64,000 nt of DNA, taken from Natrinema pellirubrum DSM 15624 (lineage in GTDB: Archaea > Halobacteriota > Halobacteria > Halobacteriales > Natrialbaceae). Each line of letters opens with the position of its first letter. The first letter of the stretch is position 1. A program made the position numbers and the translations under genes. The DNA lies in the NCBI RefSeq assembly GCF_000230735.2, contig NC_019962.1:682001-746000 (forward strand), written 5' to 3'. Below are positions 1,117-34,424 of this stretch, piece by piece. The notes beneath the pieces were generated by a model that worked only from the letters and a program-made list of their open reading frames with translations, made no database searches and had not been told where the DNA came from.

Positions 1117-1881
1117 CTACTCCTCGTTTTCGCTGCCGTGTTCCGTGTCCTCTGCCGTCGTCTCGAGGTACTCGCCGCGAATCACCAGGACCGGATCGAC
1201 CGTCTCTTGGGCCAGCCGTTCGACGCGATCCCGGAAGACGTACCGGCGGATCGACGGCCGACTCTCGCCGAGGACGAGGAGGTCGTGATCCGCCGCGGCG
1301 TCGAGAATCGCTGCCGTGGGCGAGTCGTCGACGACGACCGTGCTGTCGATCCGCCCGTCGTCGAGGCCAGCGGCCACCAGTTCCGACCGCGCCCGCTCGA
1401 GCAGTTCCGCGCCCGCGTCTCGCTCTCCCTCGTCGGCGGCGACGTGAAAGAGGGTGACCGCGAGCGTCGTGTCGGCGAGGACCGTACGGAGCAGTCGGGC
1501 GATGTGTTCGACGTTGACGTCGCTCCGAATCGCGACGAGTACCGTCTCGAGGATAGGCGCTGGGTTGCAGACCAGGACGGCGTCGCACGATTCCTCGACG
1601 GCGACGCGTTCGAACGTCTTCAGTCGGGAGTGGGTAAACGCCAACCGCGACTCGACGTCACAGCCGGCGTCCTCGAACACCGTCCGTCGCTCCGCGAGTT
1701 CGGCCCGCATGCGATCGCCGTACTGATCGCGTGCCTGCTCCGTGCCGGTCTGGTCCGGGAGTTCGCGATAGCCCAGCAGAACGACCGGAATCGACGCGAA
1801 CGCGTCGACGAGCGTCCGCGGAACGCTCTCCCCCTCGAGGACGTCGACCGGAATCAACACGCGATGGGCGCGGTCTGACAT
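1117..1881 (-). CDS. Universal stress protein (UspA family) paralogue
   Basis: A 254-residue protein with the same plan as the gene at 395-1087: N-terminal VLIPVDVLEGESVP against ILVPLAILEGETVP, a conserved FTH motif near residue 100, and a shared C-terminal DPVLVIRG strand. The tail after about residue 235 is acidic and non-conserved. The two genes converge with a 29-base gap, which suggests an old inverted duplication. A GATATATTA element about 30-38 bases upstream of the ATG (on the minus strand near 1910-1920) is a plausible TATA box. The specific stress or ligand is unknown. Confidence 0.8.
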   Translation of the reverse strand: MSDRAHRVLIPVDVLEGESVPRTLVDAFASIPVVLLGYRELPDQTGTEQARDQYGDRMRAELAERRTVFEDAGCDVESRLAFTHSRLKTFERVAVEESCDAVLVCNPAPILETVLVAIRSDVNVEHIARLLRTVLADTTLAVTLFHVAADEGERDAGAELLERARSELVAAGLDDGRIDSTVVVDDSPTAAILDAAADHDLLVLGESRPSIRRYVFRDRVERLAQETVDPVLVIRGEYLETTAEDTEHGSENEE

Positions 1882-2000
1882 GACTGACGAGTGACTCTCC
1901 CACGGGCAGCGTAATATATCCCGGCCGACGACCGCCCCCTCGAGCCCCGTTTCGGCGGACGGCCGCGCGTTTTTGTAGCTCGGCCACTTAAACCAGTACC

Positions 2001-3134: not shown

Positions 3135-3949
3135 GCGCGGGCGCGGGTCGGCAGGACGGGACCGACCGGCCGCGGCCGGCCGGTTACCGCCACCTCGCGC
3201 GGGCCGTCCTCTACCGCGAGTACCTGATCTTCGTTCGCTACCCCGCAAACGCCGTCGGCGGGCTCGTCATCTCGGTGTTTTTCTTCGGGCTGCTGTTCTA
3301 CGGCGGCCGGGCGATCGCCGGACAGGCCTTGACCGACTCGATCGAGGGGATCATCGTCGGCTACTTCCTGTGGTCGCTCTCGGTCGGGGCGTACTCCTCG
3401 ATCTCGAACGACATCGGGAGCGAGGTCCAGTGGGGGACCCTCGAGCGCCACGTGATGTCGCCGTTTGGCTTCGCGCCCGTGGCCCTGTTGAAGGGCCTCG
3501 CCAAGATCGTCCGGTCGTTCGTCACCTCGTCGGTGCTGCTCGCGGTGATGCTGCTCATCACCGGGCGGAGCCTCGAACTGAACGTGGGGACGATCGTCGT
3601 CGTCGCGACGCTCAGCATCGTCTCGGTGCTGGGGCTCGGACTGGCCGCCGGCGGCGTGACCGTCCTCTACAAGCGGGTCGGCAACTGGCTCAACCTGCTC
3701 CAGTTCGGCTTTATCGTGCTGATCTCCGCGCCCGCGTTCGACCTCGGCTGGCTGCGATTCTTCCCGCTCGCCCAAGGCAGCGCGCTCCTCCAGCGGACGA
3801 TGATCCACGACGTCCGTCTCTGGGAGTTCCCCGCGGTCGATCTCGCAATCTTGCTCGGGGTCGCCGTCGGCTACGTCACGCTCGGCTACGCGATCTTCCA
3901 GTACGCGACCCGCCGGGCGCGACGGCTCGGCGTCCTCGGGGACTACTGA
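3131..3949 (+). CDS. ABC-2 type transporter permease
   Basis: A 272-residue membrane protein, translationally coupled to the ATPase at 2001-3134. After a short N-terminal cytoplasmic segment with a YREYLIFVRYPAN motif, typical of ABC-2 permeases, there are about six hydrophobic segments: roughly residues 40-60, 75-95, 120-145, 155-180, 195-215 and 235-258. Together the pair makes a simple exporter of the kind used for drugs, lipids or polysaccharide intermediates. Nothing nearby specifies the cargo. Confidence 0.88.
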   Translation: MSAGAGRQDGTDRPRPAGYRHLARAVLYREYLIFVRYPANAVGGLVISVFFFGLLFYGGRAIAGQALTDSIEGIIVGYFLWSLSVGAYSSISNDIGSEVQWGTLERHVMSPFGFAPVALLKGLAKIVRSFVTSSVLLAVMLLITGRSLELNVGTIVVVATLSIVSVLGLGLAAGGVTVLYKRVGNWLNLLQFGFIVLISAPAFDLGWLRFFPLAQGSALLQRTMIHDVRLWEFPAVDLAILLGVAVGYVTLGYAIFQYATRRARRLGVLGDY

Positions 3950-4032
3950 CCCGCTTTCAGCCCGCCGGACTGACGGCGTCCGGAACCGTCGCCCCCGCCA
4001 GACTCTCCCCCGTGGCACCCGTTCGATTTCGT

Positions 4033-4278
4033 ATGGCCCACGACAGGATCCACGCGCGGAAACCGACACACGACCTCGAGCGATGGTCCGTCGGGACGAT
4101 CGCCGCCATCGACCAACGGGACGGTCACGCCGTCTTCGAGGTTACGACCGAGGGCGGCGAGTCGGTCGAACTCGTCGTGACGGTCGCGATCCGGGATCTC
4201 GTCCTCCGGCGACTCGATCTCGCGGCCGACGAGTCGCCGATCGGTGCCCGCGTCTGGTACCGCACCCGCGGCGGCTGA
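4033..4278 (+). CDS. Conserved-looking small haloarchaeal protein (81 aa)
   Basis: An 81-residue protein starting MAHDRIHARKPTHDLERW. It has a beta-rich middle (VGTIAAIDQRDGHAVFEVTT) and a second half predicted as alternating strands and a helix. It has no signal peptide or membrane segment. Codon use matches the neighbours, and it fits a known style of small cytosolic haloarchaeal proteins of unknown function. It lies alone between the exporter and a tRNA-binding protein. The ATG at 4033 is preferred because the frame upstream overlaps the permease as Arg/Pro-rich shadow sequence. Confidence 0.6.
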   Translation: MAHDRIHARKPTHDLERWSVGTIAAIDQRDGHAVFEVTTEGGESVELVVTVAIRDLVLRRLDLAADESPIGARVWYRTRGG

Positions 4279-4326
4279 CGGCGGCGGATCGATACCTAGT
4301 TTTCGGTGGCGACGGTATCGTGGGGC

Positions 4327-4650
4327 ATGGTCGAGAGCCCGTTCGACGTGACGATCGAGGTTGGCGAGGTACTCGAGGCCGAACCGTTCCCCGAAGCCGA
4401 GAAGCCCGAGATGACCAAGCTGTGGATCGACCTCGGCGACGAGGAGATCCAGTCCGCGGCGCAGTTGGACCACCATCACGACGCCGCCGACCTCGAGGGC
4501 CGGCAGGTGCTGTGCGCGACGAACCTTGGCTCCGTACGGATCGCGGGATTCAAATCGGAGGCGCTGACTGTCGGCGTTCCCAGTGAGGAGGGGTATCCCG
4601 TGCTGGTCTCGCCCGACGAGGACGTGCCGCTGGGCGGAACGCTGTACTGA
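4327..4650 (+). CDS. tRNA-binding domain protein, CsaA-like
   Basis: A 107-residue, single-domain protein of the OB-fold tRNA-binding family (CsaA, and the C-terminal domain of MetRS/Arc1p). It contains the EKPEMTKLWIDLGD opening typical of the family (residues about 25-38), the GRQVLCATNL strand-turn, and the conserved FKSEALTVG motif near residue 80, where SEVL-x-x-G is usual. In bacteria such proteins act as chaperone-like or tRNA-binding homodimers; the archaeal role is not established. The length matches CsaA. The ATG at 4327 is chosen over 4306 because it opens directly into the family's first strand. Confidence 0.78.
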   Translation: MVESPFDVTIEVGEVLEAEPFPEAEKPEMTKLWIDLGDEEIQSAAQLDHHHDAADLEGRQVLCATNLGSVRIAGFKSEALTVGVPSEEGYPVLVSPDEDVPLGGTLY

Positions 4651-4700
4651 TATTGGGAATAGTCTAAGTAGTACCCACTGTAACCGTATACGTGTGAAAG

Positions 4701-4949
4701 ATGGGGACGGAAACTGACGACCGCGGACGGCTCTATCTCTCGAAGGACCTCCGTGAGCGGCACGGAGAGCGTTTTCACGTCGTCGAATACAGCGACCACA
4801 TCGAACTGATCCCGATCGACGACGACCCGCTCGAGGGACTTCGAGAAGCCGTCGGCGACGCGTTCGATGACAAATCGATCGACGAACTGCGCGACGAAGC
4901 CCGGGAGTTGGCCCGCGAGGAGGTAGCGAACGATGTACGTCGAGACTGA
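4701..4949 (+). CDS. AbrB/SpoVT-like antitoxin (VapB type)
   Basis: An 82-residue protein. Residues 5-45 form a swapped-hairpin AbrB-type DNA-binding module (DDRGRLYLSKDLRERHG, then VVEYSDHIELIPI). The C-terminal half is an acidic helix that would wrap the toxin. The last 17 bases overlap the start of the PIN-domain gene, the usual arrangement of a VapBC operon. It is expected to neutralise the PIN nuclease and repress its own promoter; this is known for the family and not shown here. The upstream sequence TAAGTAGTACCCACTGTAAC is short and shows no certain operator. Confidence 0.82.
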   Translation: MGTETDDRGRLYLSKDLRERHGERFHVVEYSDHIELIPIDDDPLEGLREAVGDAFDDKSIDELRDEARELAREEVANDVRRD

Positions 4950-5322
4950 TTTCCTGCTAGCGCTTCTCAAGGACTCTGACTGGTTGCAGGCCGAGGCGAA
5001 AGCTGCCCTCGACGAACACGAGGTAGAAACGTCGATCCTCGCCTACGCAGAACTCTTTCTCCTCCTCGACGACTACGACGTCGATCGCGTTCGAGCGATT
5101 TCCAACCTCGTCGAACTCGTCCCGGTTCGACCCGAGGAACACTCACAGGCCGTTCTCAAGGCGGTCAAGTATCAGGACGAACACGGGATGACGAACTTCG
5201 ACTCGCTTCACGCGGGGATGGTCGACACGTGGGAGACGCCAGTTCTTGGTAGCGAACGTGACTACGACGACCTCGAGATCGAGCGCATCCCGCTCGAGCC
5301 GACGAACGAGGAGTCCGAGTAG
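4933..5322 (+). CDS. PIN-domain ribonuclease, VapC-like toxin
   Basis: A 129-residue protein with the four acidic positions of the PIN active site: D6 (in MYVETD), E40 (in AYAEL), D90 (in MTNFDSLHAG) and D110/D112 (in SERDYDD). The length and motif spacing are those of VapC toxins, which cleave RNA with Mg2+. It overlaps the AbrB-like gene by 17 bases, so the two are co-translated. It sits between a tRNA-binding protein and mutS. All key residues are present, so the toxin looks intact. Confidence 0.85.
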   Translation: MYVETDFLLALLKDSDWLQAEAKAALDEHEVETSILAYAELFLLLDDYDVDRVRAISNLVELVPVRPEEHSQAVLKAVKYQDEHGMTNFDSLHAGMVDTWETPVLGSERDYDDLEIERIPLEPTNEESE

Positions 5323-5398
5323 GGCAGTCCCGTCGCTGCCCGGCCACGTTCACCGCGGATCCCGCAGGGTTTTTGCGGTGGAGGGACAGTCACCGGAT

Positions 5399-8068
5399 AT
5401 GACCGAGGCGACGGGGATCGTCGGCGAGTTCTTCTCGCTCAAGGAAGACACCGACGCCGACCTCCTGACGATGCAGTGTGGCGATTTCTACGAGTTCTTC
5501 GGGGAGGACGCCGAACTCGTCAGCGAGGAACTCGACCTCAAAGTCTCACAGAAGTCCTCGCACGGTTCCTCCTATCCGATGGCCGGCGTGCCGATCGACG
5601 ACCTGACGCCCTACCTCAAGGCCCTCGTCGAACGCGGCTACCGCGTCGCCGTCGCCGACCAGTACGAGACCGACTCCGGCCACGCCCGCGAGGTCGTCCG
5701 CGTCGTGACCCCCGGGACCCTGCTCGAGACGAGCGACGCCGATGCCCAGTACATGGCGGCGGTCGTCGACGGGAGCGAGGTCGGCGGGGCGAGCAGTGAC
5801 GGCTACGGCCTCGCGTTCGCCGACGTGACGACCGGCCGCTTTCTCGTCGCCGACGCCGCCGACCCCGACGAGGCGCTGACGGAACTCTATCGATTCGATC
5901 CGGTCGAGGTCCTGCCCGGCCCCGAAGTGCGGACCGACGACGACCTGCTCGGGAAACTGCGCGAGCGCGTCGACGCGACGCTGACGCTCCACGAGACCGA
6001 CGCGTTCGCGCCGAAACGCGGTGCCCACACTGTCCGTGAGCAGTTCGGAACCGAGACCGTCGACCGACTGTCGGTCGGCGAGCAGACGCTCGCGGCCGCC
6101 GGTGCGGTGCTTTCCTACGTCGAGGAGACCGGCGCGGGCGTGCTGGCCTCGATGACCCGCATCCAGGCCCACCACGGCGACGACCACGTCACCCTGGACG
6201 CGACCACCCAGCGTAACCTCGAGTTGACCGAGACGATGCAAGGCGACGGCGACGGCTCGCTGTTCGCGACGATCGACCACACCGAGACCAGCGCCGGCGG
6301 CCGCCTGCTCAAAGAATGGCTCCAGCGGCCCAGACGGTCGCTCGAGACCCTCGAGGAGCGACAGGCGAGCGTCGACGCGCTCTCGACGGCGGCGCTGGCC
6401 CGCGACGAGATCCAGGACCGCCTCGGCGAAGCCTACGATCTCGCCCGCCTCGCCTCGAAGGCCAGCCACGGCAGCGCCGACGCGCGGGATCTGGTGGCTG
6501 TCCGCGAGACGCTGGCCGTCCTCCCGGCCGTGGCCGAGACGATCGAGTCGACGCCGGCACTGGCCGACTCCCCCCTCTCGGCGATCGTCGACCGGCCGGA
6601 TCGAGCGGCCGCGCGGGAGTTGCGCGAGACCCTCGAGGAAGCCGTCGCCGAGGACCCGCCGTCGACGGTGACGCAGGGGGAACTCCTCCGGAAAGGGTAC
6701 GACGACGAACTCGACGAGGTGATCGAGCGCCACGAGGAAGTCAGGGAGTGGCTCGACACCCTCGCCGAGCGCGAGAAGCGCCAGCACGGACTCTCGCACG
6801 TCACCGTCGACCGGAACAAGACCGACGGCTACTACATCCAGGTCGGCAAATCGGCCGCGGACGGCGTGCCCGACCACTACGAGCAGATCAAGACGCTGAA
6901 AAACTCCAAGCGGTTCACGACCGAGGAACTCGAGGAGAAAGAACGCGACGTCCTCCGGCTCGAGGACCGGCGCGGCGAACTGGAGTACGAACTCTTCGAG
7001 GAACTCCGCGACGAGGTGGCCGAGCGGGCGGCACTGCTACAGGACGTCGGCCGGGCCTTAGCGACGATCGACGCGCTGGCGAGTCTGGCGACCCACGCCG
7101 CCGAGAACCGCTGGGTGCGGCCGGAGCTGCATCGGGGCGATGACCTGACGATCGAGCAGGGCCGCCACCCGGTCGTCGAGCAGACGACGGAGTTCGTGCC
7201 CAACGACGTCCGCATGGACGAGGACCGCGGCTTTCTGGTCGTCACCGGCCCCAACATGTCCGGCAAGTCGACGTACATGCGCCAAGTCGCGTGTATCGTC
7301 TTGCTCGCCCAGATCGGGAGCTTCGTCCCGGCCGAAGCGGCCGAGATCGGCGTCGTCGACGGTATCTTCACTCGCGTCGGCGCGCTCGACGAACTCGCAC
7401 AGGGCCGGTCGACGTTCATGGTCGAGATGAGCGAACTCTCGAACATCCTCCACACCGCGACCGAGGAGTCGCTGGTCATCCTGGACGAGGTGGGGCGGGG
7501 CACCGCGACCTACGACGGTATCTCGATCGCGTGGGCCGCCACGGAGTACCTGCACAACGAAGTGAAAGCGAAGACCCTCTTTGCCACCCACTACCACGAA
7601 CTGACCGGCCTCGCGGAGAACCTCCCCCGCGTCGCCAACGTCCACGTCGCGGCCGACGAGCGCGACGGCGAGGTCACCTTCCTCCGGACGGTCCGCGACG
7701 GCCCCACGGATCGGTCCTACGGCGTCCACGTCGCCGATCTCGCCGGCGTCCCGGATCCCGTCGTCGACCGCTCGAGGGAAGTCCTCGAGCGGCTGCGCGA
7801 GGAGAAAGCAATCGAGGCGAAAGGCGGGGCCTCGAACGAGCCGGTGCAGGCGGTCTTCGATCTGGGCAGCGGGACGATGCAGACCGAGTCCCAAGACCGG
7901 TCGCAAGCGGCGTCGACCGACGGCGGCCCGGCGGGCGAGTCGGCGGCCGCGATCGACCCCGAAACCGAGGCCGTCCTCGAGGACCTCGAGTCGATCGACG
8001 TCAACACGACGCCGCCGATCGAACTCGTCTCGCAAGTCCAGGAGTTACAGGAGCGACTCGAGGAGTGA
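5399..8068 (+). CDS. mutS: DNA mismatch repair protein MutS
   Basis: An 889-residue MutS1-type protein. The N-terminal mismatch-recognition domain has the Phe-x-Glu motif (F30-Y-E32 in GDFYEFF). Connector and lever/clamp domains follow, and the C-terminal ATPase has Walker A GPNMSGKST (617-625), Walker B with LDEVGRGT near 695, and the composite-site TYDGISIAWA region. The C-terminal tail (from about 830) is acidic and low in complexity, ending in a helix like the family's tetramerisation segment. The ATG at 5399 opens directly into the recognition domain; a longer reading adds an Arg/Ser-rich stretch overlapping the PIN gene. It pairs with mutL at 10853. Confidence 0.96.
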   Translation: MTEATGIVGEFFSLKEDTDADLLTMQCGDFYEFFGEDAELVSEELDLKVSQKSSHGSSYPMAGVPIDDLTPYLKALVERGYRVAVADQYETDSGHAREVVRVVTPGTLLETSDADAQYMAAVVDGSEVGGASSDGYGLAFADVTTGRFLVADAADPDEALTELYRFDPVEVLPGPEVRTDDDLLGKLRERVDATLTLHETDAFAPKRGAHTVREQFGTETVDRLSVGEQTLAAAGAVLSYVEETGAGVLASMTRIQAHHGDDHVTLDATTQRNLELTETMQGDGDGSLFATIDHTETSAGGRLLKEWLQRPRRSLETLEERQASVDALSTAALARDEIQDRLGEAYDLARLASKASHGSADARDLVAVRETLAVLPAVAETIESTPALADSPLSAIVDRPDRAAARELRETLEEAVAEDPPSTVTQGELLRKGYDDELDEVIERHEEVREWLDTLAEREKRQHGLSHVTVDRNKTDGYYIQVGKSAADGVPDHYEQIKTLKNSKRFTTEELEEKERDVLRLEDRRGELEYELFEELRDEVAERAALLQDVGRALATIDALASLATHAAENRWVRPELHRGDDLTIEQGRHPVVEQTTEFVPNDVRMDEDRGFLVVTGPNMSGKSTYMRQVACIVLLAQIGSFVPAEAAEIGVVDGIFTRVGALDELAQGRSTFMVEMSELSNILHTATEESLVILDEVGRGTATYDGISIAWAATEYLHNEVKAKTLFATHYHELTGLAENLPRVANVHVAADERDGEVTFLRTVRDGPTDRSYGVHVADLAGVPDPVVDRSREVLERLREEKAIEAKGGASNEPVQAVFDLGSGTMQTESQDRSQAASTDGGPAGESAAAIDPETEAVLEDLESIDVNTTPPIELVSQVQELQERLEE

Positions 8069-8174
8069 CCCGGCCGCAGACGCCGCGTTCGATGTCGGAG
8101 AGCGAGAGGTAGCGATCGGTGCTCGGATGGGTTCCGAAAACGAAGCGGCTGAATCGGTAGGTCGACATGCGAAC

Positions 8175-8348
8175 TTATCGACGAAGTCGAAGCGTTAGCA
8201 GCGCCACCATCGGACCGAGGAACAAAATAAAACCGACCCCGATAAGTAACACTTCCAGCGGGAGAATAAGGTAAAGCAGCAGTACAAGGTTGCTAAGCAA
8301 AAGTACGATAATCAGATTGAGGCGGAAGATGATCGATCTATTATTCAT
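8175..8348 (-). CDS. Small two-helix membrane protein (57 aa)
   Basis: Translation of the minus strand gives 57 residues: a short charged start MNNRSIIFR, hydrophobic segment 1 at about 10-30, then a second segment at about 33-52 and a basic end LRLRR. The pattern is that of a two-pass inner-membrane microprotein with positive ends inside. An AAATATATG element about 28-34 bases upstream of the ATG (near 8374-8382) fits a haloarchaeal TATA box and a leaderless transcript. The region is AT-richer than mutS beside it. Function unknown. Confidence 0.6.
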   Translation of the reverse strand: MNNRSIIFRLNLIIVLLLSNLVLLLYLILPLEVLLIGVGFILFLGPMVALLTLRLRR

Positions 8349-8451
8349 TGACTGATTGTTTTAACTATTTCACCATATATTTTGTCTGTACTGCTTGCCT
8401 GCCCTGAATTGGAGTGTTCTCCGGCTCCGGCGGAGGAACGCGAACCGGAAA

Positions 8452-8658
8452 CTACTGGTGGCCGTCCCGTTCGAACGCCTTGAACGCGTCCGTGTACGAT
8501 CGCAGGACCGCCAGGAGCAGCGCGAGCAGCAGGAGCGGGGCGGCGTACACGAACTGGGCGTACGGATCCGGCGGTGACACGACCGCCGGGAGGAGGATCG
8601 CGATAGCGCCGAAGACGGCCAAGGTCCGGACGAATCGACGATGCGGAGACGAACTCAT
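8452..8658 (-). CDS. Small membrane protein (68 aa), haloarchaeal
   Basis: A 68-residue protein with a short basic N-terminus, a hydrophobic segment (about residues 12-27), a conserved-looking SPPDPYAQFVYAA turn and a second hydrophobic segment (about 35-52), then a charged end. Small haloarchaeal proteins with the SPPDPY(T/A)Q turn between two helices recur, so I take this one as real. The sequence upstream of the ATG (8659-8700) holds a TATAAATTT-like stretch near 8681-8690 that could serve as a promoter. Function unknown; it is in the same orientation as the microprotein at 8175-8348. Confidence 0.65.
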   Translation of the reverse strand: MSSSPHRRFVRTLAVFGAIAILLPAVVSPPDPYAQFVYAAPLLLLALLLAVLRSYTDAFKAFERDGHQ

Positions 8659-8902
8659 ACCGACGCGTTTCGGACCGACGATATAAATTTCACTAGTGAG
8701 TCGACAGAACGGTTAGCGTAACTCCGTTCCGTGGTAGTGCCGGCGTCGCGTTCCGTCCGATCGAGGGGCAACGCAGTTCGCCGAGATCCCGCCAGTCGCG
8801 ACAGTCACGGTGGTCGATAACCGTCGGTACCGCACGACCGAACGACGGCGAGGCCGTCGGCGATCGGTAGAACTTTGAGACACTGGGGCACTCGGTAGCA
8901 CG

Positions 8903-9703
8903 ATGCACGAAGCAGACTTCGACGTGGCGGGGAAGACCGCCATCGTCACCGGCGCGAGTCAGGGGATCGGCGAATCGATCGCGAAGACGCTGGCCGCAGG
9001 CGGCGCGGACGTCGCCATTTGTTCGCGGTCGATGGACCGTGTCGGTCCGGTGGCCGACGAGATCAACGACGCCGACGACGCGGCCCAGGCGCTCGCGGTC
9101 GAGTGCAACGTCCGCGAGCGCGAGCAGGTTCAAAATCTCGTCGACGAGACGGTCGCGGAGTTCGGCGACGTCGACATCCTGATCAACAACGCCGGCGGCG
9201 AGTTCGTCGCGCCCTTCGAGGACATCTCCGCGAACGGCTGGGAGACCATCGTCGACCTCAACCTCAATAGCACCGTCCACTGCACGCAACTCGCCGGCGA
9301 GGTCATGCGCGAGGGCGACGGCGGGGTCATCATCAACATGTCCAGCGTCAACGGCCAGCACGCCGCGCCCGGCGAGAGCCACTACGGCGCGTCCAAGGCG
9401 GCGATCATTCGCCTCACTGAGACACTCGCAGTCGAGTGGGCCGAGGACGGCATCCGCGTCAACTGCATCGCGCCCGGGCTCATCCAGACGCCCGGCGTCG
9501 CCGAGACGCTCGGCATCGACAGCGAGGACATGCCGCCCCGCGAGGAGACCGACCGCCGCATCGGCTACGGCGAGGACATCGCCGACGTCGCACAGTTCCT
9601 CGCCAGCCCCGCCGCCGCCTTCATGAACGGCGAGACCGTGACGGTCAAAGGCGTCCCGCGAGCCGGTAACTCGATGTCGCAGGACCTCGGCCTCGAGGAC
9701 TGA
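8903..9703 (+). CDS. SDR-family oxidoreductase
   Basis: A 266-residue classical short-chain dehydrogenase/reductase. The Rossmann motif TGASQGIG is at residues 16-23, an NNAGG motif is near 93, and the catalytic Ser-Tyr-Lys set appears as MSS, then HYGASK around 145-162. The APGLIQTPG segment after the catalytic Lys is the substrate-lid region common in FabG/3-oxoacyl or glucose-dehydrogenase-like SDRs. An acidic or basic residue after the second strand (SRSMDR) suggests NADP(H) over NAD(H). Substrate cannot be fixed. It stands alone between small membrane proteins and the gene at 9788. Confidence 0.88.
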   Translation: MHEADFDVAGKTAIVTGASQGIGESIAKTLAAGGADVAICSRSMDRVGPVADEINDADDAAQALAVECNVREREQVQNLVDETVAEFGDVDILINNAGGEFVAPFEDISANGWETIVDLNLNSTVHCTQLAGEVMREGDGGVIINMSSVNGQHAAPGESHYGASKAAIIRLTETLAVEWAEDGIRVNCIAPGLIQTPGVAETLGIDSEDMPPREETDRRIGYGEDIADVAQFLASPAAAFMNGETVTVKGVPRAGNSMSQDLGLED

Positions 9704-9787
9704 CGGCGTCCGACGCTGACCCCGTCTTCGTTCCGTTCGTCGCCGTCGGATCAGCCGGGTCACGCTGACGACGGACGGGTAACGAAT

Positions 9788-10717
9788 ATGTCGGGCGGCT
9801 ACCAAATGTGGCCGATGGCGACTCCTTCGAACCCCGGCATCGACGTGGTTGCAGCCGTCGGCCTGTACGTCGCGGCGGTCGCAGTCGGCCTCGTCGCGCT
9901 CGGTGGGGTCGCCACGGGGGCCTCGAGCGACGCTCTCGTAGCGCTGGTTCCGACCGCGTTCACCACCGGCTTGCTCTGTGGGGTCGTCGTTGCGCGCGTC
10001 ACCGCCGACGCCGTGGTCCGACTCGGTGCCTGGCGGTGGCGGACCGTCGCTTGTTGGGCGCCCGCGTCGCTCGTCGCGGGCGGTGCCGTCGTCCTCTCGG
10101 CGACTGGCGCGGTCTCACGGGGCTGGCGACTGCTACTGCTCGGCGGCGCGTCGGTCGCGGTCGTCCTGTCGGGCTGGCTGCTGTCGCGGACGACGCGCGA
10201 CGCTTACGTCGGCGCGGCGATCGACGACCGCGACGACATGCTCGTCGACTGGACGTGGTATCAATCCGGGACCCACGCGTTCCTGACCGCCATCGGACTC
10301 GCCCTGTTCGGGGTCGGAACGGCGGCCTCGCTCGCCGTCGGCACGCTCTCATATCGGTTCCTCCTCCCCTCGATCGTACTGGTCGTCCTCGGGTGGGCAC
10401 CGACGCTCTCGGTCCCGACTCCTGGCGGCGACGACCTGACGCTGTTCTCGGTCACCGGGCTCGAAGGTGCCCGCGCCGACGTCCGCGCCTATCCCGACGG
10501 CATCGTCGTCGAGCCCCGACTGATCCCGTCGTACAGGTGGTTCGTCCCGTGGGACCGGATCGTCGGCGTGCGAACGACCGCGGATCGACTCGTCTTCGAG
10601 CGCCGGTGGCGACCGGCCGTTCGCTGTGATCGGTCGGCGATCGAGGACGCCGAGGCCGTTCGCGACGCGATCGAGCGGGCGCGGCGGGGGACGGTCGATT
10701 CCCAAACCACAATTTAA
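9788..10717 (+). CDS. Multi-pass membrane protein with C-terminal PH-like domain
   Basis: About 309 residues. Six or so hydrophobic segments fill residues 20-215. The C-terminal 90 residues are soluble and beta-rich, with strands such as DLTLFSVTGLEG, ADVRAYPDGIVVE and RWFVPWDRIVGV followed by a final helix, the layout of bacterial PH-like (bPH) domains attached to membrane proteins. The start is uncertain; ATG at 9788 gives the longest product and internal ATGs at 9806 and 9815 are close. The stop at 10715 overlaps a TATA-like TTTAAC that may serve mutL. No function known. Confidence 0.65.
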   Translation: MSGGYQMWPMATPSNPGIDVVAAVGLYVAAVAVGLVALGGVATGASSDALVALVPTAFTTGLLCGVVVARVTADAVVRLGAWRWRTVACWAPASLVAGGAVVLSATGAVSRGWRLLLLGGASVAVVLSGWLLSRTTRDAYVGAAIDDRDDMLVDWTWYQSGTHAFLTAIGLALFGVGTAASLAVGTLSYRFLLPSIVLVVLGWAPTLSVPTPGGDDLTLFSVTGLEGARADVRAYPDGIVVEPRLIPSYRWFVPWDRIVGVRTTADRLVFERRWRPAVRCDRSAIEDAEAVRDAIERARRGTVDSQTTI

Positions 10718-10742
10718 CGCCGTTCGAACGCGAGCCAAAACC

Positions 10743-10856
10743 ATGAACGGACCGCGGACGAGGACCGATGGGAGCGCACCCGGTTCCCCATCGAGTGCGC
10801 ACGACGGGGACGAACGCCGACGGTACCGACGCCGCCGTACTCGAATCCAGCAATGA
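10743..10856 (+). other. Short Arg-rich mini-ORF whose stop overlaps the mutL start
   Basis: A 37-codon open frame with an ATG at 10743 and a TGA at 10854-10856 that overlaps the mutL ATG (ATGA). A TTTAAC element at 10713-10718 lies about 28 bases before this ATG, so a leaderless transcript would begin here and not at mutL. The peptide is hydrophilic and Arg-rich towards its end (RRRYRRRRTR). It could be a leader peptide coupling ribosomes into mutL, or simply a chance frame in a 5' leader. No conserved domain. Confidence 0.35.
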
Positions 10857-13027
10857 CTACCGACCCACCCCAGGACGACACCGAGATCCGCCAGTTAGAC
10901 GAGGACACCGTCGCCCGGATCGCCGCCGGCGAGGTCGTCGAGCGACCAGCCAGCGCGGTGAAGGAACTCGTCGAGAACAGCTTAGACGCCGACGCCGACA
11001 GCGTCGACGTCACCGTCGAGGCGGGCGGCACCGATCTGATCCGGGTCGCCGACGACGGCCGCGGGATGAGCGAGGCCGACCTCCGGGCGGCCGTCCGCGA
11101 ACACACGACCAGCAAGATCGACGGCCTCGAGGACCTCGAATCCGGCGTCGCCACCCTCGGATTCCGCGGCGAGGCCCTCCACACGATCGGCTCGGTCTCG
11201 CGAATGACCATCCGCTCGTGGCCCCGCGGGAGCGAGGGTGCGGGGACGGAACTCGTCTACGAGGGCGGCGACGTGACCAGCGTCGAGCCGACGGGCTGTC
11301 CCGAGGGGACGACGGTCGAAATCGAAGACCTGTTCTACAACACCCCCGCTCGGCGGAAGTTCCTCAAGACGACCGCGACGGAGTTCTCCCACGTCAACCG
11401 CGTCGTCACGCGCTACGCGCTCGCAAATCCGGACGTGGCCGTCTCGCTGACCCACGACGGCCGCGAGGTGTTCTCGACGACGGGACAGGGCGACCTGCAG
11501 GCCGCCGTCCTCGCAGTCTACGGCCGCGAGGTCGCCTCCTCGATGATCCCCGTCGAAGCCGACGGCGACGACCTCCCGCCGGGCCCCCTCGAGTCCGTCT
11601 CGGGGCTCGTTTCCCATCCGGAGACCAACCGCTCGAGCCGGGACTACCTCGCGACCTACGTCAACGGTCGCGCCGTCACGGCCGACGCCGTCCGCGAGGG
11701 GATCATGGGGGCCTACGGGACGCAACTGGGTGGGGACCGCTACCCGTTCGTCACCCTCTTTCTCGAGGTTCCGGGCGAAGCGGTCGACGTCAACGTCCAC
11801 CCGCGCAAGCGGGAGGTCCGTTTCGACGACGACGACGCGGTCCGCCGGCAGGTCGATGCCGCCGTCGAATCGGCGTTGCTCGAACACGGCCTGCTTCGCT
11901 CGCGTGCCCCGCGCGGTCGGTCGGCCCCCGGCGAGGCGCGGGTCCGGCCCGACGCGCGCGGAACCGGAGCCGGGACCGATCCGGCCGCTGCCGGTGGCGA
12001 ACCCGCGACGCTCGAGGACGGTGTCGAAACGGGGTCGTCGGCGAGCGACTCGAGTCCGACCGAACGCGATGAGGACGACGGCCCGGGCGAGCGGTCGTCG
12101 ACCGACCGGGCCGCGGACGCGAGAACGGAAACGGACGCCAGCGACCCCGTCGCTGATTCGAGCCGCGCGGCCGGCGATCGGGCCGCGAGCGCCAGCTCGG
12201 ACTCGAGCGGGTCGACCGCCGCCGATTCCGTCACCCACACGGAACCCGACGCCAGTGGTTCCACGGCCGACTCGAGCGCCCCCGATTCGCGCCGGAACCG
12301 CGACGCGAGTGCGGGTCGGGAACGGGGTCGCGACCGCGACGCCGACCGCAAATTCGACGCCGCGACCGAGCAGCGGACCCTGACCGGCGAGGCCGCGACG
12401 GGCGAGGAAACCGCGTTCGACTCGCTGCCCCCCCTGCGGGTGCTGGGACAGCTCCACGACACCTATCTGGTCTGTGAGACCGACGACGGGCTCGTCCTGA
12501 TCGACCAACACGCCGCCGACGAGCGGGTCAACTACGAGCGCCTGCAGGCGGCCTTCGCCGACGATCCCACCGCACAGGCGCTGGCCGACCCCGTCGAACT
12601 CGAGTTGACCGCCGCCGAGGCCGAGGCCTTCGCGCAGTACAGCGACGCGCTCTCACGGCTGGGCTTTTACGCCGACCGGACCGACGACCGGACCGTCGCC
12701 GTGACGACCGTCCCCGCCGTCCTCGAGGAGACTCTCGAGCCCGATCGCCTGCGGGACGTGTTGGCCTCGTTCGTCGCGGGCGACAGCGAGGCGGGGGCCG
12801 AGACGGTCGACGCGTTGGCCGACGAGTTCCTCGGCGATCTCGCGTGCTATCCGTCGATTACCGGCAACACGTCGCTGACCGAAGGCTCGGTCGTCGACCT
12901 GCTCGAGGCGTTGGACGACTGCGAGAACCCCTACGCCTGCCCGCACGGCCGGCCCGTGATCGTCCGGTTCGACGAGGCCGAGATCGAGGATCGGTTCGAG
13001 CGGGACTATCCGGGCCACGGCGGCTGA
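10853..13027 (+). CDS. mutL: DNA mismatch repair protein MutL
   Basis: A 724-residue protein. The N-terminal GHKL ATPase has the motifs VVERPASAVKELVENSLDA, the DDGRGM lid motif near 65-70 and GFRGEAL near 103-109, followed by the second ATPase subdomain ending near 350. A Ser/Asp-rich linker runs to about 515. The C-terminal dimerisation domain carries the endonuclease motif DQHAADERVNYE (D551 to E562) and CPHGRP (from C696), so this is the nicking type of MutL, as in eukaryotes and most bacteria without MutH. It works with MutS to direct strand removal. It lies in the same direction as mutS, 2.8 kb downstream. Confidence 0.95.
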   Translation: MTTDPPQDDTEIRQLDEDTVARIAAGEVVERPASAVKELVENSLDADADSVDVTVEAGGTDLIRVADDGRGMSEADLRAAVREHTTSKIDGLEDLESGVATLGFRGEALHTIGSVSRMTIRSWPRGSEGAGTELVYEGGDVTSVEPTGCPEGTTVEIEDLFYNTPARRKFLKTTATEFSHVNRVVTRYALANPDVAVSLTHDGREVFSTTGQGDLQAAVLAVYGREVASSMIPVEADGDDLPPGPLESVSGLVSHPETNRSSRDYLATYVNGRAVTADAVREGIMGAYGTQLGGDRYPFVTLFLEVPGEAVDVNVHPRKREVRFDDDDAVRRQVDAAVESALLEHGLLRSRAPRGRSAPGEARVRPDARGTGAGTDPAAAGGEPATLEDGVETGSSASDSSPTERDEDDGPGERSSTDRAADARTETDASDPVADSSRAAGDRAASASSDSSGSTAADSVTHTEPDASGSTADSSAPDSRRNRDASAGRERGRDRDADRKFDAATEQRTLTGEAATGEETAFDSLPPLRVLGQLHDTYLVCETDDGLVLIDQHAADERVNYERLQAAFADDPTAQALADPVELELTAAEAEAFAQYSDALSRLGFYADRTDDRTVAVTTVPAVLEETLEPDRLRDVLASFVAGDSEAGAETVDALADEFLGDLACYPSITGNTSLTEGSVVDLLEALDDCENPYACPHGRPVIVRFDEAEIEDRFERDYPGHGG

Positions 13028-29445: not shown

Positions 29446-29987
29446 GCGACGAGCCCCACCGCGCCCGTGACGAATCGTCGAACACCCCTTCGTGGTCGGT
29501 ATCGTCTCGCTGCTTTTCGGCACCGTCTTTCTGTTTGGCTCGAGGTCGGACTCTCGCTGTGGTACCCGTGGCGAACCGCCGATCGACCGAACGGACGCGT
29601 CGATGTCACGACCGGCGATTGGTCGGTCCAACCCGGCGATCCGTCCGAAAGAAGCAGGCATTTATGCCGGTTCCGGCGACGGAGCCGTCCGATGGCCACT
29701 CGAGCGAGAGGGCTCCCGAGTCGCGAGATCCATCCGACGGGGCGAATAAAATCGGGACATACGAAGGGTGACAGTTCTGTCAGGAGTGGCGACGGCCCGC
29801 TGCCGTGGTTCCGGAGCGACGGTACTGTTTACCCGGACGCGTAGCTGAAAGGGGAGTCGGCCACAACCGACGAGTACACCATGAGTATGACAGTATCGAA
29901 CGTTCGACAGGAACGGTCGGCGAGCGGCCGATCGGCCCGGTCCGGTCGCCGCGGCCACGCCGACCGTGACCGCGTGGGTGATCTCGC
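29446..29987 (+). other. 542-base region without a convincing gene, leader of the rhodanese-reductase gene
   Basis: Two open frames are worth noting. A 50-codon frame begins with ATG at 29692 and ends at 29844, with a CATTTATG element about 27 bases upstream. A 36-codon frame from 29881 to 29991 (Arg-rich end, stop overlapping the next gene's GTG at 29988) is the likely 5' mini-ORF. The other long frames are Arg/Pro-rich on both strands. I see no RNA gene, repeat or operator. Confidence 0.3.
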
Positions 29988-29991
29988 GTGA
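29881..29991 (+). other. 36-codon mini-ORF overlapping the rhodanese-reductase start
   Basis: ATG at 29881 opens a 36-residue hydrophilic frame ending in TGA at 29989-29991. The stop overlaps the GTG start at 29988 (GTGA), so termination would place ribosomes at the reductase start. No TATA box is obvious at the expected distance. Possible leader or small protein; could also be chance. Confidence 0.3.
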
Positions 29992-32390
29992 GCTTCGGCC
30001 CTGCGGTGGTCTCGCCGTCGTGGCTCGAGGCCCACCGGGAGTCGGACTCGGTCGTCGCGGTCGATGTCCGGGAGCGGCGCGACTACGAGGAGCTGGGGCA
30101 TCTCCCCGGCGCAGTCAGTGTTCCGGGTGATCGGTTCCGCGACCCCAGTAGCGTCGCGGCCGGGAAGTTGCCGGCGGCGGACGACTTCGCGAGCCTGCTC
30201 GCCGAGGCCGGCATCGACCCCGACGACACCCTCGTCGCCTACGGGGGCGACCCCGCGCTCGCGGCCCGCTTTCTGGTGACCGCGCTGGTCTACGGTCACG
30301 AGGGGAGTCTTTACCTGTTAGACGGCGGCCTCGAGGCCTGGCGCGACGGCGACGACCGCTCGCTGACCACGGACGTGCCCGACCGCGAGCCGACCGACTA
30401 CGAGGCCGCGCTGTGCGAGGACGCGCCGCTGGTCGACCGCGAGGACGTCGAGGACGCGGTCGAGGGCGACGCCGTCCTCGTCGACACTCGGACCACCGCC
30501 GAGTACGAGCAGTCCCGCATTCCGGGGGCCGTCCACCTCGACTGGGAGGCCCTGCTCGAGGACGGCCGGCTCAAGCCCGAGGCCGACCTCGAGGCCCTGC
30601 TCGCGGAGCGGGGAATCGAGCCGGACGAACGGATCCTGCTGTACTGTAACACGGCCCGGCGGCTCAGTCACACCTTCGTCGTCCTCCGTCACCTGGGCTA
30701 CGAGGACGTGGCCTTCTACGAGGGGAGTCTCACTGACTGGGTGCGCACCGAAGCGCCCGAGTGGGACCCCGTCGAACTGCAGGCACAGGTCCGGTACTAC
30801 GCCGACAACGGCGGCTTCGAGGCGATGGTCGACGAACTGGGCGAGGACGTCCTCGGCCGCCTGAAGCTGATCGGGCTCTACCACCAGAAACAGCGGGGCT
30901 ACTTCATGTTGCGGACACGGGCCCCCGGCGGACGCCTCACCGCCGAGCAGGCCCGCACGATCGGCGAGGTCGCCGACGAGTTCGCGACGGCACCCGCGGA
31001 ATACGGCGGCCCCGACCAGAACCCGGTCTTCGGCGACGGCTACCTCGACGTGACGACCCGACAGGACGTCCAGATGCACTGGATCGAGATCGAGGATATC
31101 GCCGAGATCTGGGACCGCTACGACGCGGTCGGGCTCTCGACGATGCAGGCCTGTGGCAACTCGGTCCGGAACGTCGTCGGCTGTCCCGCGGCCGGGCTCG
31201 ACCCCGACGAGACCGTCGATATCGAGCCCGTCGTCGAGCGGGTGAGCCAGCGGTTCCTCGGGGACCACCACTACGCCAACCTCCCCCGGAAGTTCAAGGT
31301 CAGCGTCACGGGCTGTCACGAGGACTGCGCCCGGTCGGGCATCCAGGATCTCGGGCTGACACCCGCCCGGAAGGACGGAAAAGACGGGTTCGTCGCGCGG
31401 GTCGGCGGCGGCCTCTCGGACGGTCCCCGCGTCGCCAGCGACATCGACCTCTTCGTCGAACCCGACCAGGTCGACGACCTCGTGGCCGCGATGGCCGACC
31501 TGTTCATGGACCACGGCAGCTATCTCGACACCGCGGTCAACCGGCTGCGATTCCTCGTCGCCGAGTTCGGCCCCGAGCGGTTCCGCGAGGAACTCGAGTC
31601 CTACGCCGACTTCGAGTTCGTCGAACCCGACGAGACCCTCACGATGGACTACCGCGGGGACCACGTCGGTGTCCACGAGGGGGCGGACGGCCGTTCCTAC
31701 GTCGGGCTGAACGTTCCGACGGGCCGGATGGGCGGCGACGAGTTCGCTGAGTTGGCAGAACTGGCCGACGACCTGGGCGACGGCGAAGTCCGCCTGACGC
31801 CCAACCAGAACGTCCTCGTCCCGCATCTCGCGGACGACGAACTCGAGGCATTGCTCGAGGAGCCGCTGCTCGAGCGCTACAGTCCCGATCCGGGGCCGTT
31901 CACGCGCGGAATCGTCACCTGCACGGGCCGGGAGTTCTGTAACTACGGGATCATCGAGACGAAAAACAGGGCGATCAGGTGGGCCCGCGAACTGGACGAC
32001 TGGGCCGAGCAGGTCGGCATCGCCGACGATCACGAGGCGATCCGGATCCACATGTCGGGCTGTTCGGCCTCCTGTGCCCAGCCCCAGCTGGGCGATTTCG
32101 GGCTGCGCGGCGAGGTCTACCGCGACGACTACGAGTCCGGGCGGGCGGCCGACCTCGGACTGGGCGGCGACCTCGGCAACGACGAGTTCATCGACTGGCT
32201 CGTCGGGAAGATCCCGATCGACGATGTGCCCGATGTCGTCAAGGCCACAATGTGTGCCTACGACGCCGACAGCGAGCCCGAGGAGTCCTTCACCGAGTGG
32301 ACCGACCGGACCTCGAACGCGGCGCTGCGGGAGATCGTTACCGAGGGACCGGCACGCGACTCGCCCGCCATCGGGACGGAGGTGACCTAG
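29988..32390 (+). CDS. Tandem rhodanese fused to siroheme sulfite/nitrite reductase
   Basis: An 800-residue fusion. Residues 1-125 form an inactive rhodanese domain (no Cys in AYGGDPALA). Residues about 150-262 form an active rhodanese with C220 in the loop CNTARR. Residues about 285-790 form a ferredoxin-type sulfite/nitrite reductase: two NIR/SIR repeats, and the 4Fe-4S/siroheme cysteines C645, C651 (CTGREFC) and C692, C696 (CSASC). The first half carries the pseudo-motif CxxxxxC/CxxxC. Rhodaneses move sulfane sulfur from thiosulfate and release sulfite, which a sulfite reductase would turn to sulfide; this suggests substrate channelling. Nitrite as the substrate is not excluded. The next gene starts at 32391, with no gap. 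Confidence 0.85.
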   Translation: MSFGPAVVSPSWLEAHRESDSVVAVDVRERRDYEELGHLPGAVSVPGDRFRDPSSVAAGKLPAADDFASLLAEAGIDPDDTLVAYGGDPALAARFLVTALVYGHEGSLYLLDGGLEAWRDGDDRSLTTDVPDREPTDYEAALCEDAPLVDREDVEDAVEGDAVLVDTRTTAEYEQSRIPGAVHLDWEALLEDGRLKPEADLEALLAERGIEPDERILLYCNTARRLSHTFVVLRHLGYEDVAFYEGSLTDWVRTEAPEWDPVELQAQVRYYADNGGFEAMVDELGEDVLGRLKLIGLYHQKQRGYFMLRTRAPGGRLTAEQARTIGEVADEFATAPAEYGGPDQNPVFGDGYLDVTTRQDVQMHWIEIEDIAEIWDRYDAVGLSTMQACGNSVRNVVGCPAAGLDPDETVDIEPVVERVSQRFLGDHHYANLPRKFKVSVTGCHEDCARSGIQDLGLTPARKDGKDGFVARVGGGLSDGPRVASDIDLFVEPDQVDDLVAAMADLFMDHGSYLDTAVNRLRFLVAEFGPERFREELESYADFEFVEPDETLTMDYRGDHVGVHEGADGRSYVGLNVPTGRMGGDEFAELAELADDLGDGEVRLTPNQNVLVPHLADDELEALLEEPLLERYSPDPGPFTRGIVTCTGREFCNYGIIETKNRAIRWARELDDWAEQVGIADDHEAIRIHMSGCSASCAQPQLGDFGLRGEVYRDDYESGRAADLGLGGDLGNDEFIDWLVGKIPIDDVPDVVKATMCAYDADSEPEESFTEWTDRTSNAALREIVTEGPARDSPAIGTEVT

Positions 32391-33653
32391 ATGTCGGGTA
32401 CCGATCCCGCCGCGACCGACGGGCCCCGTCCCGGCGTTCCGCAGGCGGGGGTCAAGGGCGTCGGCGAGGATCCGCGCGAGCAGGACCGCGACGTCGCCGA
32501 GGCCCCCGGGAAGATCTGGTTCCGCGACTTAGACGAGGCCGTCATCGAGGCCGACCGCTGTATCCAGTGTGCCTCCTGTGTCGCGGCCTGTCCCTCCGAC
32601 TCCATCGGCATCGACGAGGACGAGGGCAGACCGACGCTGGTCAAGATGTGTACCGGCTGTTCGCGCTGCTGGGACTTCTGTCCCCGCAGTGGCCTGCGCT
32701 ACGAGCGCCACCTCGAGCTTACCCAGGCGGAACGCGGCCTCGCGGAGCCGGTCACCTACGCCGCGCGAGCGACCGATGAGGCCGCCGATGCGGGCCAGGA
32801 CGGCGGCGTCGTGACGGCCCTGCTCACCGAACTCATCGAAGCGGGTGAGATCGACGGCGCGATCGTCGCCCGCGAGCGCGAGGACGAGCCGCTGCGCGGC
32901 GAGGCCGTACTGGCGACCTCCCGCGAGGAACTGCTCGCGGCCGTCGGCAGCGTCTACAACCAGACGATGGGGCTGGGGCAAGTCGACGAGTTGCTCGCTG
33001 ACGCCGATCTGGGCGACGACCCGGACCTCGCGCTGGTCGGCACCCCCTGTATGATTCAGGGGGCGACCGCGCTCGATCGCTACGACCACGAGCCCGCCGA
33101 CCCGATCGCGCTGACCGTCGCGCTGATGTGTACCCGCAGCTTCGAGCACAGCCGGCTGGTGTCGCGACTCGAGACCTTCGACGTCGACCCTGACGCCGTC
33201 GATACCCTCGACATCAGTGACGGGCAGCTCCGCGCGACCGACGCGGGCGGCGAGACGCTGCTCGAGACCGACGTTGACGCGTTCGACGCGGCCGGGCTGC
33301 GCGGCTGTGACGAGTGTGCGGACTTCGTCGGTGGCGCGGCCGACATCAGCGTCGGCAACGTCGGCAGCCCGGATGGCGAGACGACCGTCGTCGTCCGGAC
33401 CGAAACCGGCGAGTCGGCCTGGGAGACGGCAGCCCCCGACCTCGAGGCGGCCGCGATCGACCGGCCGGGGACGCTCGAGAAACTGGCCGACTGGAACCGC
33501 CGTCGCGCCGAGTCGATCCTCCCGCGGGAGTACGACCCCGAGGCCGGGATCGGCATCTCCTACGAACACCACCGCGAGAGCTACGACGGGACCGACCGCG
33601 AGCCCGAACCGCTGAACCCGGCTCGCGTCCACCAGTACGAGGAGTGGTGTTGA
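32391..33653 (+). CDS. FrhB-like F420-type flavoprotein with two 4Fe-4S clusters
   Basis: A 420-residue protein. N-terminal ferredoxin-like motifs: CIQCASCVAACP (C57, C60, C63, C67) and CTGCSRCWDFC (C87, C90, C93, C97). The FrhB domains follow: QDGGVVTALL near 146, VGTPCMIQGA near 221, LMCTRSFEHSRL near 247 and RGCDECADFVGGAADISVGNVGSPDG near 305. FrhB-type subunits use FAD and F420. Directly after the rhodanese-reductase gene, it probably feeds electrons from F420H2 to the reductase, as the fused domain does in methanogen Fsr; that partnership is inferred. Confidence 0.85.
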   Translation: MSGTDPAATDGPRPGVPQAGVKGVGEDPREQDRDVAEAPGKIWFRDLDEAVIEADRCIQCASCVAACPSDSIGIDEDEGRPTLVKMCTGCSRCWDFCPRSGLRYERHLELTQAERGLAEPVTYAARATDEAADAGQDGGVVTALLTELIEAGEIDGAIVAREREDEPLRGEAVLATSREELLAAVGSVYNQTMGLGQVDELLADADLGDDPDLALVGTPCMIQGATALDRYDHEPADPIALTVALMCTRSFEHSRLVSRLETFDVDPDAVDTLDISDGQLRATDAGGETLLETDVDAFDAAGLRGCDECADFVGGAADISVGNVGSPDGETTVVVRTETGESAWETAAPDLEAAAIDRPGTLEKLADWNRRRAESILPREYDPEAGIGISYEHHRESYDGTDREPEPLNPARVHQYEEWC

Positions 33654-33764: not shown

Positions 33765-34424
33765 ATGACGGGCTTTCGTGCAACGGTCGTCGTCAACGAA
33801 CCGGCGGACTGTCCGGTCGCTACTGTTTCAGCGGAGGCCAACGAGCAGATCGATTCGATCGCTCGCTCCTCACAGGCGACCGCCGACGGGACCGTCGTCG
33901 AGGAGTTCGGCGTCGCCGCCGACGCCTCGATCGACGAAAGCGGGGACGCCGGCGTCGAGCTGACGCCGGTCCAATCGAACGAACGGGAGGCCATCTACCG
34001 GTTCGAGCGCGACGCCGCCGCCGACTGCGTCTGCGAGGTCGTCGAACGGACCGGCACCCCCGTTTCCTCGGTCCGGGCGCAGGACGGCTCCCTGCTGTTG
34101 TCCTTTCGGACCCTCGAGCTGGCCGAGATCGCCGACATCGTCGATCACCTGCGAGAGCTGTTCGACGGCGTCCTCGTCGAGGAACTGACACAGGACCACG
34201 AGGAGGTCTCGGCGGATCCGGTCGTCGTCGACCGCGAGATACTCACGGACAGACAACAGGAGATCGTCGAGACGGCCCACGAGATGGGCTATTTCGACTA
34301 CCCGAAGGGTGCGAACGCGACCGACGTCGCCGAGGAGTTGGGCGTCGCCCGGTCGACCTTCACCGAACATCTGGCGGCGGCCCAGACGAAGCTGATGGAC
34401 GCGATCCTCGAGGAAGAAACGTAG
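33765..34424 (+). CDS. HTH_10 (Bat-type) regulator next to the reductase operon
   Basis: A 219-residue protein. Its N-terminal 150 residues are a beta-rich sensor with several Cys (DCPVAT near 16, DCVCEV near 87-90), and the C-terminal HTH_10 domain is about residues 160-215 (LTDRQQEIVETAHEMGYFDYPK, then DVAEELGVARSTFTEHL). It lies 111 bases downstream of the FrhB-like gene, so it may sense redox or sulfur and regulate that pair. The role is inferred. ATG at 33765; the frame is open further upstream without a good start. Confidence 0.78.
   Translation: MTGFRATVVVNEPADCPVATVSAEANEQIDSIARSSQATADGTVVEEFGVAADASIDESGDAGVELTPVQSNEREAIYRFERDAAADCVCEVVERTGTPVSSVRAQDGSLLLSFRTLELAEIADIVDHLRELFDGVLVEELTQDHEEVSADPVVVDREILTDRQQEIVETAHEMGYFDYPKGANATDVAEELGVARSTFTEHLAAAQTKLMDAILEEET

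Follow-up and report, generated by a model that had tools for sequence, protein, structure and literature searches.

The two-subunit haloarchaeal system aFsr was proposed from genomes in 2012 (Susanti and Mukhopadhyay, PMC3448663), in a study whose tree also lists Fsr-N homologues from Rubrobacter and Thermobaculum, and was again termed putative in 2022 (PMC9295563). A 2021 review considered a Natronomonas Fsr-like protein too distant for the same function to be assumed, and described what coenzyme F420 does in haloarchaea as enigmatic, only one F420-dependent reaction having been reported (PMC8305020). Rhodanese-NirA fusions were counted in 2024 in Halobacteria as cluster 195.2, representing 19 of 529 NirA proteins, with a role in sulfur metabolism suggested by the same source (PMC11237513). 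No activity report for any aFsr was present in the papers found, and no report joining the rhodanese-NirA fusion with an aFsr-type FrhB pair was found in the open-licence literature. Here, such a union is described from a 64,000-nucleotide stretch of the Natrinema pellirubrum DSM 15624 genome (NC_019962.1, positions 682,001-746,000, forward strand), hereafter the window, on which all coordinates are based. A gene for a tandem rhodanese fused to a siroheme reductase is followed by a gene for an FrhB-type flavoprotein, and it is reasonably probable that the two encode a rhodanese-fused variant of haloarchaeal aFsr, i.e. a sulfite reductase that draws on F420H2 and is fed by its rhodanese with sulfite derived from thiosulfate.

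The gene pair and the type of its reductase

The open reading frames (ORFs) of the fusion and the flavoprotein have the coordinates given in the first-pass annotation, which was made from the letters alone, and the base right after the fusion stop codon is the start of the FrhB ORF, leaving zero intergenic bases. In the first protein, Pfam placed Rhodanese and NIR_SIR at two stretches each, together with NIR_SIR_ferr; in the second, it placed a dicluster Fer4 domain, FrhB_FdhB_N, and FrhB_FdhB_C, in line with the earlier description of an FrhB-type protein with two ferredoxin motifs. An aSir-type reductase subunit is encoded with an Fsr-N-type F420H2 dehydrogenase subunit, as in aFsr, and the second protein has the FrhB N and C domains plus the N-terminal 2[4Fe-4S] domain of the FrhB/FpoF/Fsr-N family. 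The tandem rhodanese fold occupies residues 1-255 by Pfam and sequence match, with the catalytic cysteine (C220, CNTARR) in the second domain. In an alignment of 11 fusions, the other ten of which are 51-97% identical to that of the window, C220 and the siroheme/4Fe-4S cysteines C645, C651, C692, and C696 were invariant and no cysteine was present at the C220-equivalent place of the first domain, which agrees with the order read earlier: an inactive rhodanese, an active one, and the reductase.

Among 116 Halobacteria genomes that were at least 90% complete, the fusion was present in 11 and an unfused FrhB-linked reductase in 25, with FrhB directly next on the same strand in every case (11/11 and 25/25); eight of the 11 fusion genomes also contained an unfused pair. 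FrhB matches of this family were confined in these genomes to the neighborhood of such reductases, each full match having one upstream. A pattern-based scan of 84,980 species yielded 13 fusion loci in named genomes, from Natrinema, Natrarchaeobius, Natronoglomus, Natronobiforma, Natronomonas, Halorhabdus, Natronococcus, and Halovenus, with FrhB at 13/13. Unfused relatives were recovered by the same scan at 65 loci, among them loci of Rubrobacteraceae and of one Chloroflexi metagenome-assembled genome, with FrhB at all but one, a truncated locus, and the scan showed no fusion outside Halobacteria. The arrangement of fusion and FrhB is far beyond chance, and the search for the same gene order that had been proposed at the outset was positive in both sets, which partly comprise the same organisms.

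Reductase trees were quick maximum-likelihood trees without bootstrap. The fused, haloarchaeal unfused, and Rubrobacter reductases formed one group against non-linked reductases (Shimodaira-Hasegawa-like approximate likelihood ratio test, 100), and each formed one clade, with the Rubrobacter and haloarchaeal unfused clades as sisters and the fused clade outside them. Since the fused rhodaneses are of the common haloarchaeal CNTARR type, the fusion looks like the capture of a common rhodanese by a reductase that was already FrhB-linked.

Sequence matches of the reductase were to plant-type ferredoxin nitrite reductases and Mycobacterium tuberculosis NirA (NirA-type E 1e-82), with a weak match to Fsr (E 1e-9). 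The fusion protein structure was predicted with a predicted local distance difference test score (pLDDT) of 87.8 and a predicted template modelling (TM) score of 0.81, and its best fold match was M. tuberculosis NirA (1zj8, TM 0.87 on target), a sulfite reductase (Schnell 2005, as cited in PMC11237513). By these matches the reductase is of the assimilatory NirA/SirA type, not Fsr-like. The initial view of methanogen Fsr roles split over two genes was not sustained for this subunit, and descent from an Fsr split in two was rejected, the reductase being of another type.

Alignment of haloarchaeal relatives separated three pocket signatures cleanly: F/GGDTMRN/MPRKFN in nitrite-type enzymes, Y/CGDSWRN/LPRKWK in plain sulfite-type enzymes, and Y/CGDSARN/LPRKFK in FrhB-linked reductases. 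The fusions carry Y, [CSG]GN..RN, and PRK[FL]K. Position 437 is Lys here, and the Asn of the nitrite type is the residue altered in the tobacco N226K mutant structure. Four cationic residues, two Arg and two Lys, are common to Fsr and other sulfite reductases (PMC10229431). R309, R394, K435, and K437 are invariant in the fusions and, by reading of the motifs, would be these four, which favors sulfite as the more likely substrate, as had been supposed.

Genomic context and conserved cysteines

The best sequence matches of the FrhB protein were an F420-reducing carbon monoxide dehydrogenase subunit of an ethanotroph (8riu, E 3e-42), Fsr (E 2e-36), and F420-linked formylmethanofuran dehydrogenase. 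Fold matches agreed with these F420 enzymes, and the closest matches by both sequence and fold are F420 users; the plant FrhB-fold enzyme HCAR was weaker, at 15-18% identity. The predicted structure was poor in the ferredoxin domain and tail (pLDDT <50). In the aligned motifs the conserved FrhB cysteines coincide with those of Fsr, so the flavin probably has a third cluster next to it.

The strongest evidence for the electron donor and the substrate comes from Rubrobacteraceae and relatives, where the unfused pair lies in the Pfam-annotated gene run cofD-cofC-cofE-cysH-SIR-FrhB-117aa-sat-cysC-tauE, so that F420 synthesis genes, sulfate-to-sulfite genes, and the pair are neighbors. At 17 Rubrobacter-type loci, cofE was present at 12, cysH at 16, sat at 13, and cysC at 12, absentees being mostly cut by contig ends. 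Example runs extend over 1733-10031 (locus L198) and 1610-10880 (L199), and the 117-amino-acid protein has no Pfam match. No paper describing this run was found in the open-licence literature. With the fused clade lying outside the Rubrobacter and haloarchaeal unfused clades, F420 and sulfite are transferred to the fused pair by common descent. Together with the conserved pairing, the run agrees with the electron input through an FrhB-type F420 module put forward in the first-pass annotation. On this genomic evidence F420 is very likely the electron donor, and sulfite is with equal confidence the substrate.

By hand-compiled counts across the 116 genomes, a plain sulfite reductase was present in 72 of the 91 genomes lacking the unfused pair and in 6 of the 25 having it (Fisher p = 6e-7); within the window's own family the figures were 5 of 9 and 2 of 19 (p = 0.02). 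The two tend to exclude each other, which points to functional replacement of the plain haloarchaeal sulfite reductase by the unfused pair. The window's genome is without a plain form, so its unfused pair is probably the main assimilatory sulfite reductase, and the fused pair is probably an extra one. This genome encodes a CofD above the family cut-off, and a search for 3'-phosphoadenosine 5'-phosphosulfate (PAPS) reductase returned only weak matches.

CNTARR-type rhodanese matches were present in 89 of the 116 genomes, fusions included, and the CNTARR rhodanese was rejected as an aFsr-specific marker on account of this wide occurrence. Stand-alone forms usually adjoin a gene for a rhodanese with a CRIGER loop, from which the fused loop differs, and are mostly unlinked to a reductase. 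In the window's genome, two divergent tandem rhodaneses of the CNTARR and CRIGER types (locus L008, 6507-8447) lie ~6-10 kb from the unfused reductase-FrhB pair.

The C-terminal tail of the flavoprotein (NPAR..QYE.WC, Cys last) was present in 24/24 fusion-linked FrhBs, 21 of them distinct and not all independent since the survey and named-genome sets overlap (e.g. N. thermotolerans), versus 0/88 partners of unfused reductases (Cys-ended in 0/73 haloarchaeal and 0/15 Rubrobacter partners). It is near letter-for-letter constant, though identity over the whole FrhB falls to ~50%. The tail may serve for docking, as a redox switch, or as a carrier of sulfur; a role of its cysteine in persulfide handling, suggested by the architecture, is improbable. 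Among the haloarchaeal unfused FrhB partners, 65 of 73 carry a long, acidic N-terminal extension in which a CxxxxCxC-like motif is conserved (e.g. L008, 13942-15789), and one FrhB orthologue (L069, 12027-13346) has an ~18-amino-acid insertion between the flavin-domain halves with the frame intact.

Proposed function and alternatives

In the proposed mechanism, F420H2 would reduce flavin adenine dinucleotide in the FrhB subunit, whose [4Fe-4S] clusters would pass single electrons to the siroheme-[4Fe-4S] center of the partner, where sulfite would be reduced to sulfide with six electrons. C220 of the fused rhodanese would accept the sulfane sulfur of thiosulfate and sulfite would be released beside the reductase, such that one complex would turn thiosulfate into sulfide and a protein persulfide. 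Thiosulfate as the sulfite source is slightly favored by the domain architecture. Several observations weigh against the proposal. The Rubrobacter operon is found in the sister of the unfused haloarchaeal clade, with the fused clade outside both; cof or cys genes occurred near haloarchaeal fusions at 0 of 23 loci, and in the loci examined no sulfate-assimilation or F420 genes were found beside haloarchaeal pairs, bar one weak cofC-like match. The complementarity counts, besides being compiled by hand, include three plain forms that are partial matches and have the one-family check as their only phylogenetic control, and the fusions vary (C/S/G) where M. tuberculosis NirA has its crosslink Cys. 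Finally, the CNTARR rhodanese occurs in most haloarchaea, so that fusion by itself does not set its substrate, and rhodanese domains also handle other sulfane donors.

An ordinary assimilatory nitrite reductase with an acquired rhodanese domain is highly improbable, even with ferredoxin-nitrite reductase models and plant nitrite reductases as the top sequence scores. The fusion has Lys rather than the Asn of PRKxN at the position mutated in tobacco N226K, falls outside the nitrite-type clade, and best matches in fold a NirA cited as a sulfite reductase. Furthermore, the window's genome has three siroheme reductases, i.e. the fusion, the unfused FrhB-linked enzyme (L008), and a separate nitrite-type enzyme (L009), the last directly downstream of a molybdopterin oxidoreductase gene, presumably a nitrate reductase, and away from the fusion. 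The nitrite reading was rejected on the pocket residues, the clade, and this separate NirA-type gene; the plain nitrite reductase of a nitrate cluster, which the first-pass annotation had named as the case that would overturn it, is another gene. Quite improbable also is an FrhB that acts as an independent ferredoxin:F420 oxidoreductase or uses a non-F420 donor while ferredoxin feeds the reductase. Related reductases without FrhB, presumably ferredoxin-dependent, are present in most haloarchaea, and the FrhB fold also occurs in an enzyme type that works without F420 (HCAR), but FrhB is strictly paired with this reductase clade only, cofCDE share the Rubrobacter gene run with the pair, and HCAR matches far more weakly than F420 enzymes.

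A closer alternative accepts the F420H2-dependent sulfite reductase and makes the fused rhodanese a sulfur carrier or acceptor instead of a thiosulfate user, one that might, for example, bind sulfide or other sulfane sulfur as a persulfide destined for biosynthesis, or remove reactive sulfane sulfur. We regard this as fairly unlikely. In its favor, the CNTARR rhodanese is a general haloarchaeal protein, usually found beside the CRIGER type, and the loop alone does not name the donor. On the other hand, the simplest reason for fusion to a sulfite consumer would be that sulfite is released from thiosulfate, and the unfused pair co-occurs in eight of 11 fusion genomes, suggesting that the fused form draws on a substrate supply of its own. 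An extension of the thiosulfate proposal, prompted by the perfect tracking of the terminal Cys tail with the rhodanese fusion, would make the complex an F420H2-driven thiosulfate reductase with a persulfide relay from C220 to the FrhB C-terminal Cys as a DsrC-like mobile tail, both sulfur atoms leaving as sulfide. This relay is rather improbable, and the association of tail and fusion may reflect a single event, all fusions being one clade.

Locus layout and comparison with described systems

Table 1. Features of the rhodanese-reductase and FrhB locus, in window coordinates.
Feature	Position	Strand	Basis
Putative aFsr-alpha variant, tandem rhodanese fused to siroheme/4Fe-4S assimilatory-type reductase, 800 amino acids (aa), GTG start	29988..32390	+	ORF, Pfam, sequence and fold matches
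First rhodanese domain, ~aa 7-120, without catalytic Cys (structural or pseudo domain)	30006..30347	+	Pfam, alignment
Second rhodanese domain, aa 152-253, active loop LYCNTARRLS invariant	30441..30746	+	Pfam, alignment
Catalytic Cys220 codon	30645..30647	+	Translation, alignment
Siroheme reductase portion, aa 257-786; top fold match 1zj8 (M. tuberculosis NirA)	30756..32345	+	Predicted structure
Substrate-pocket motif P-R-K435-F-K437, sulfite type; Asn at 437 in nitrite-type enzymes	31284..31298	+	Alignment
First siroheme/4Fe-4S Cys pair C645-TGREF-C651	31920..31940	+	Translation, alignment
Second siroheme/4Fe-4S Cys pair C692-SAS-C696	32061..32075	+	Translation, alignment
Putative aFsr-beta, FrhB-type flavoprotein with N-terminal 2[4Fe-4S] ferredoxin domain, 420 aa, ATG start	32391..33653	+	Pfam, sequence and fold matches
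2[4Fe-4S] ferredoxin domain, CIQCASCVAAC...CTGCSRCWDFC	32538..32690	+	Pfam, alignment
FrhB_FdhB N and C domains; C220, C247, C306, C309 also in aligned Fsr	32754..33440	+	Pfam, alignment
FrhB C-terminal tail NPARVHQYEEWC, last residue Cys, only in partners of rhodanese-fused reductases	33615..33650	+	Tail comparison
Conserved upstream element TTACCCGnACGCGTAGCTGAAAGG, candidate promoter/operator	29829..29852	+	Comparison of fusion loci
DmsR_N/HTH_10 regulator, downstream	33765..34424	+	Pfam, locus comparison

The 24-base element TTACCCGnACGCGTAGCTGAAAGG, a candidate promoter or operator, was present upstream in nine of 19 fusion loci (match of at least 21/24). Within the window it matches 24/24 only at the site in Table 1, and the next best place scores 17. 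These nine loci, which belong to two separate subclades, are also the ones where a DmsR_N/HTH_10-type regulator gene comes next downstream in the same orientation, a pattern suggestive of a self-contained regulated unit that changes its genomic surroundings. SepF, upstream in some Natrialbaceae, was the one further neighbor to recur. A 36-aa ORF at 29881-29991, possibly a translationally coupled leader, shares four bases with the reductase GTG start, and similar 35-aa ORFs (M..TVS.IR...GD) occupy the same place at three other Natrinema loci.

The union of fusion and FrhB, the tail cysteine, the Rubrobacter gene run, the exclusion with plain sulfite reductase, and the candidate operator appear to be new. 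The pair and the Rubrobacter run, in which F420 synthesis is found with PAPS reductase, ATP sulfurylase, and adenosine 5'-phosphosulfate kinase, allow a direct test, in two culturable groups, of a concrete role for F420, namely F420H2 as the electron source for sulfur assimilation in organisms other than methanogens; the rhodanese branch, if true, would be an F420-driven way of using thiosulfate.

Compared with described systems, M. tuberculosis NirA (1zj8) has the closest fold, is annotated as ferredoxin-dependent, and is without a rhodanese or FrhB partner; its Tyr/Lys/Lys/Arg pocket signature is shared by the reductase here. Cluster 195.2 apparently comprises the same fused proteins, and the accessible part of its source does not describe an FrhB partner, an F420 link, the active-site type, or the tail cysteine (PMC11237513). 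FsrII/FNiR of ANME-2c archaea is likewise an F420H2-linked siroheme oxyanion reductase, as is proposed here, but is a single polypeptide with F420H2-driven reduction of nitrite and not sulfite, and its pocket residues are unlike those here (PMC9295563). Methanogen Fsr of group I (7np8, 7npa) also brings electrons from an FrhB-type module with a 2[4Fe-4S] domain to siroheme and has the same four cationic pocket residues; however, it joins an FrhB-type half and a Dsr-LP group III-type half in one chain, with a Dsr-LP-type reductase of ~300 aa bearing an inserted ferredoxin, whereas two ORFs here encode two proteins, the reductase being of assimilatory type with doubled NIR_SIR repeats. The closest system is aFsr, which has the same combination of an aSir-type siroheme subunit with a separate Fsr-N-type subunit (2[4Fe-4S] plus FrhB) and whose unfused form is also present in the window's genome (L008). 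The pair described here differs from it in the tandem rhodanese on the alpha subunit, in its separate clade, and in a beta subunit with the invariant tail ending in Cys and without the acidic N-terminal CxxxxCxC extension of most unfused partners.

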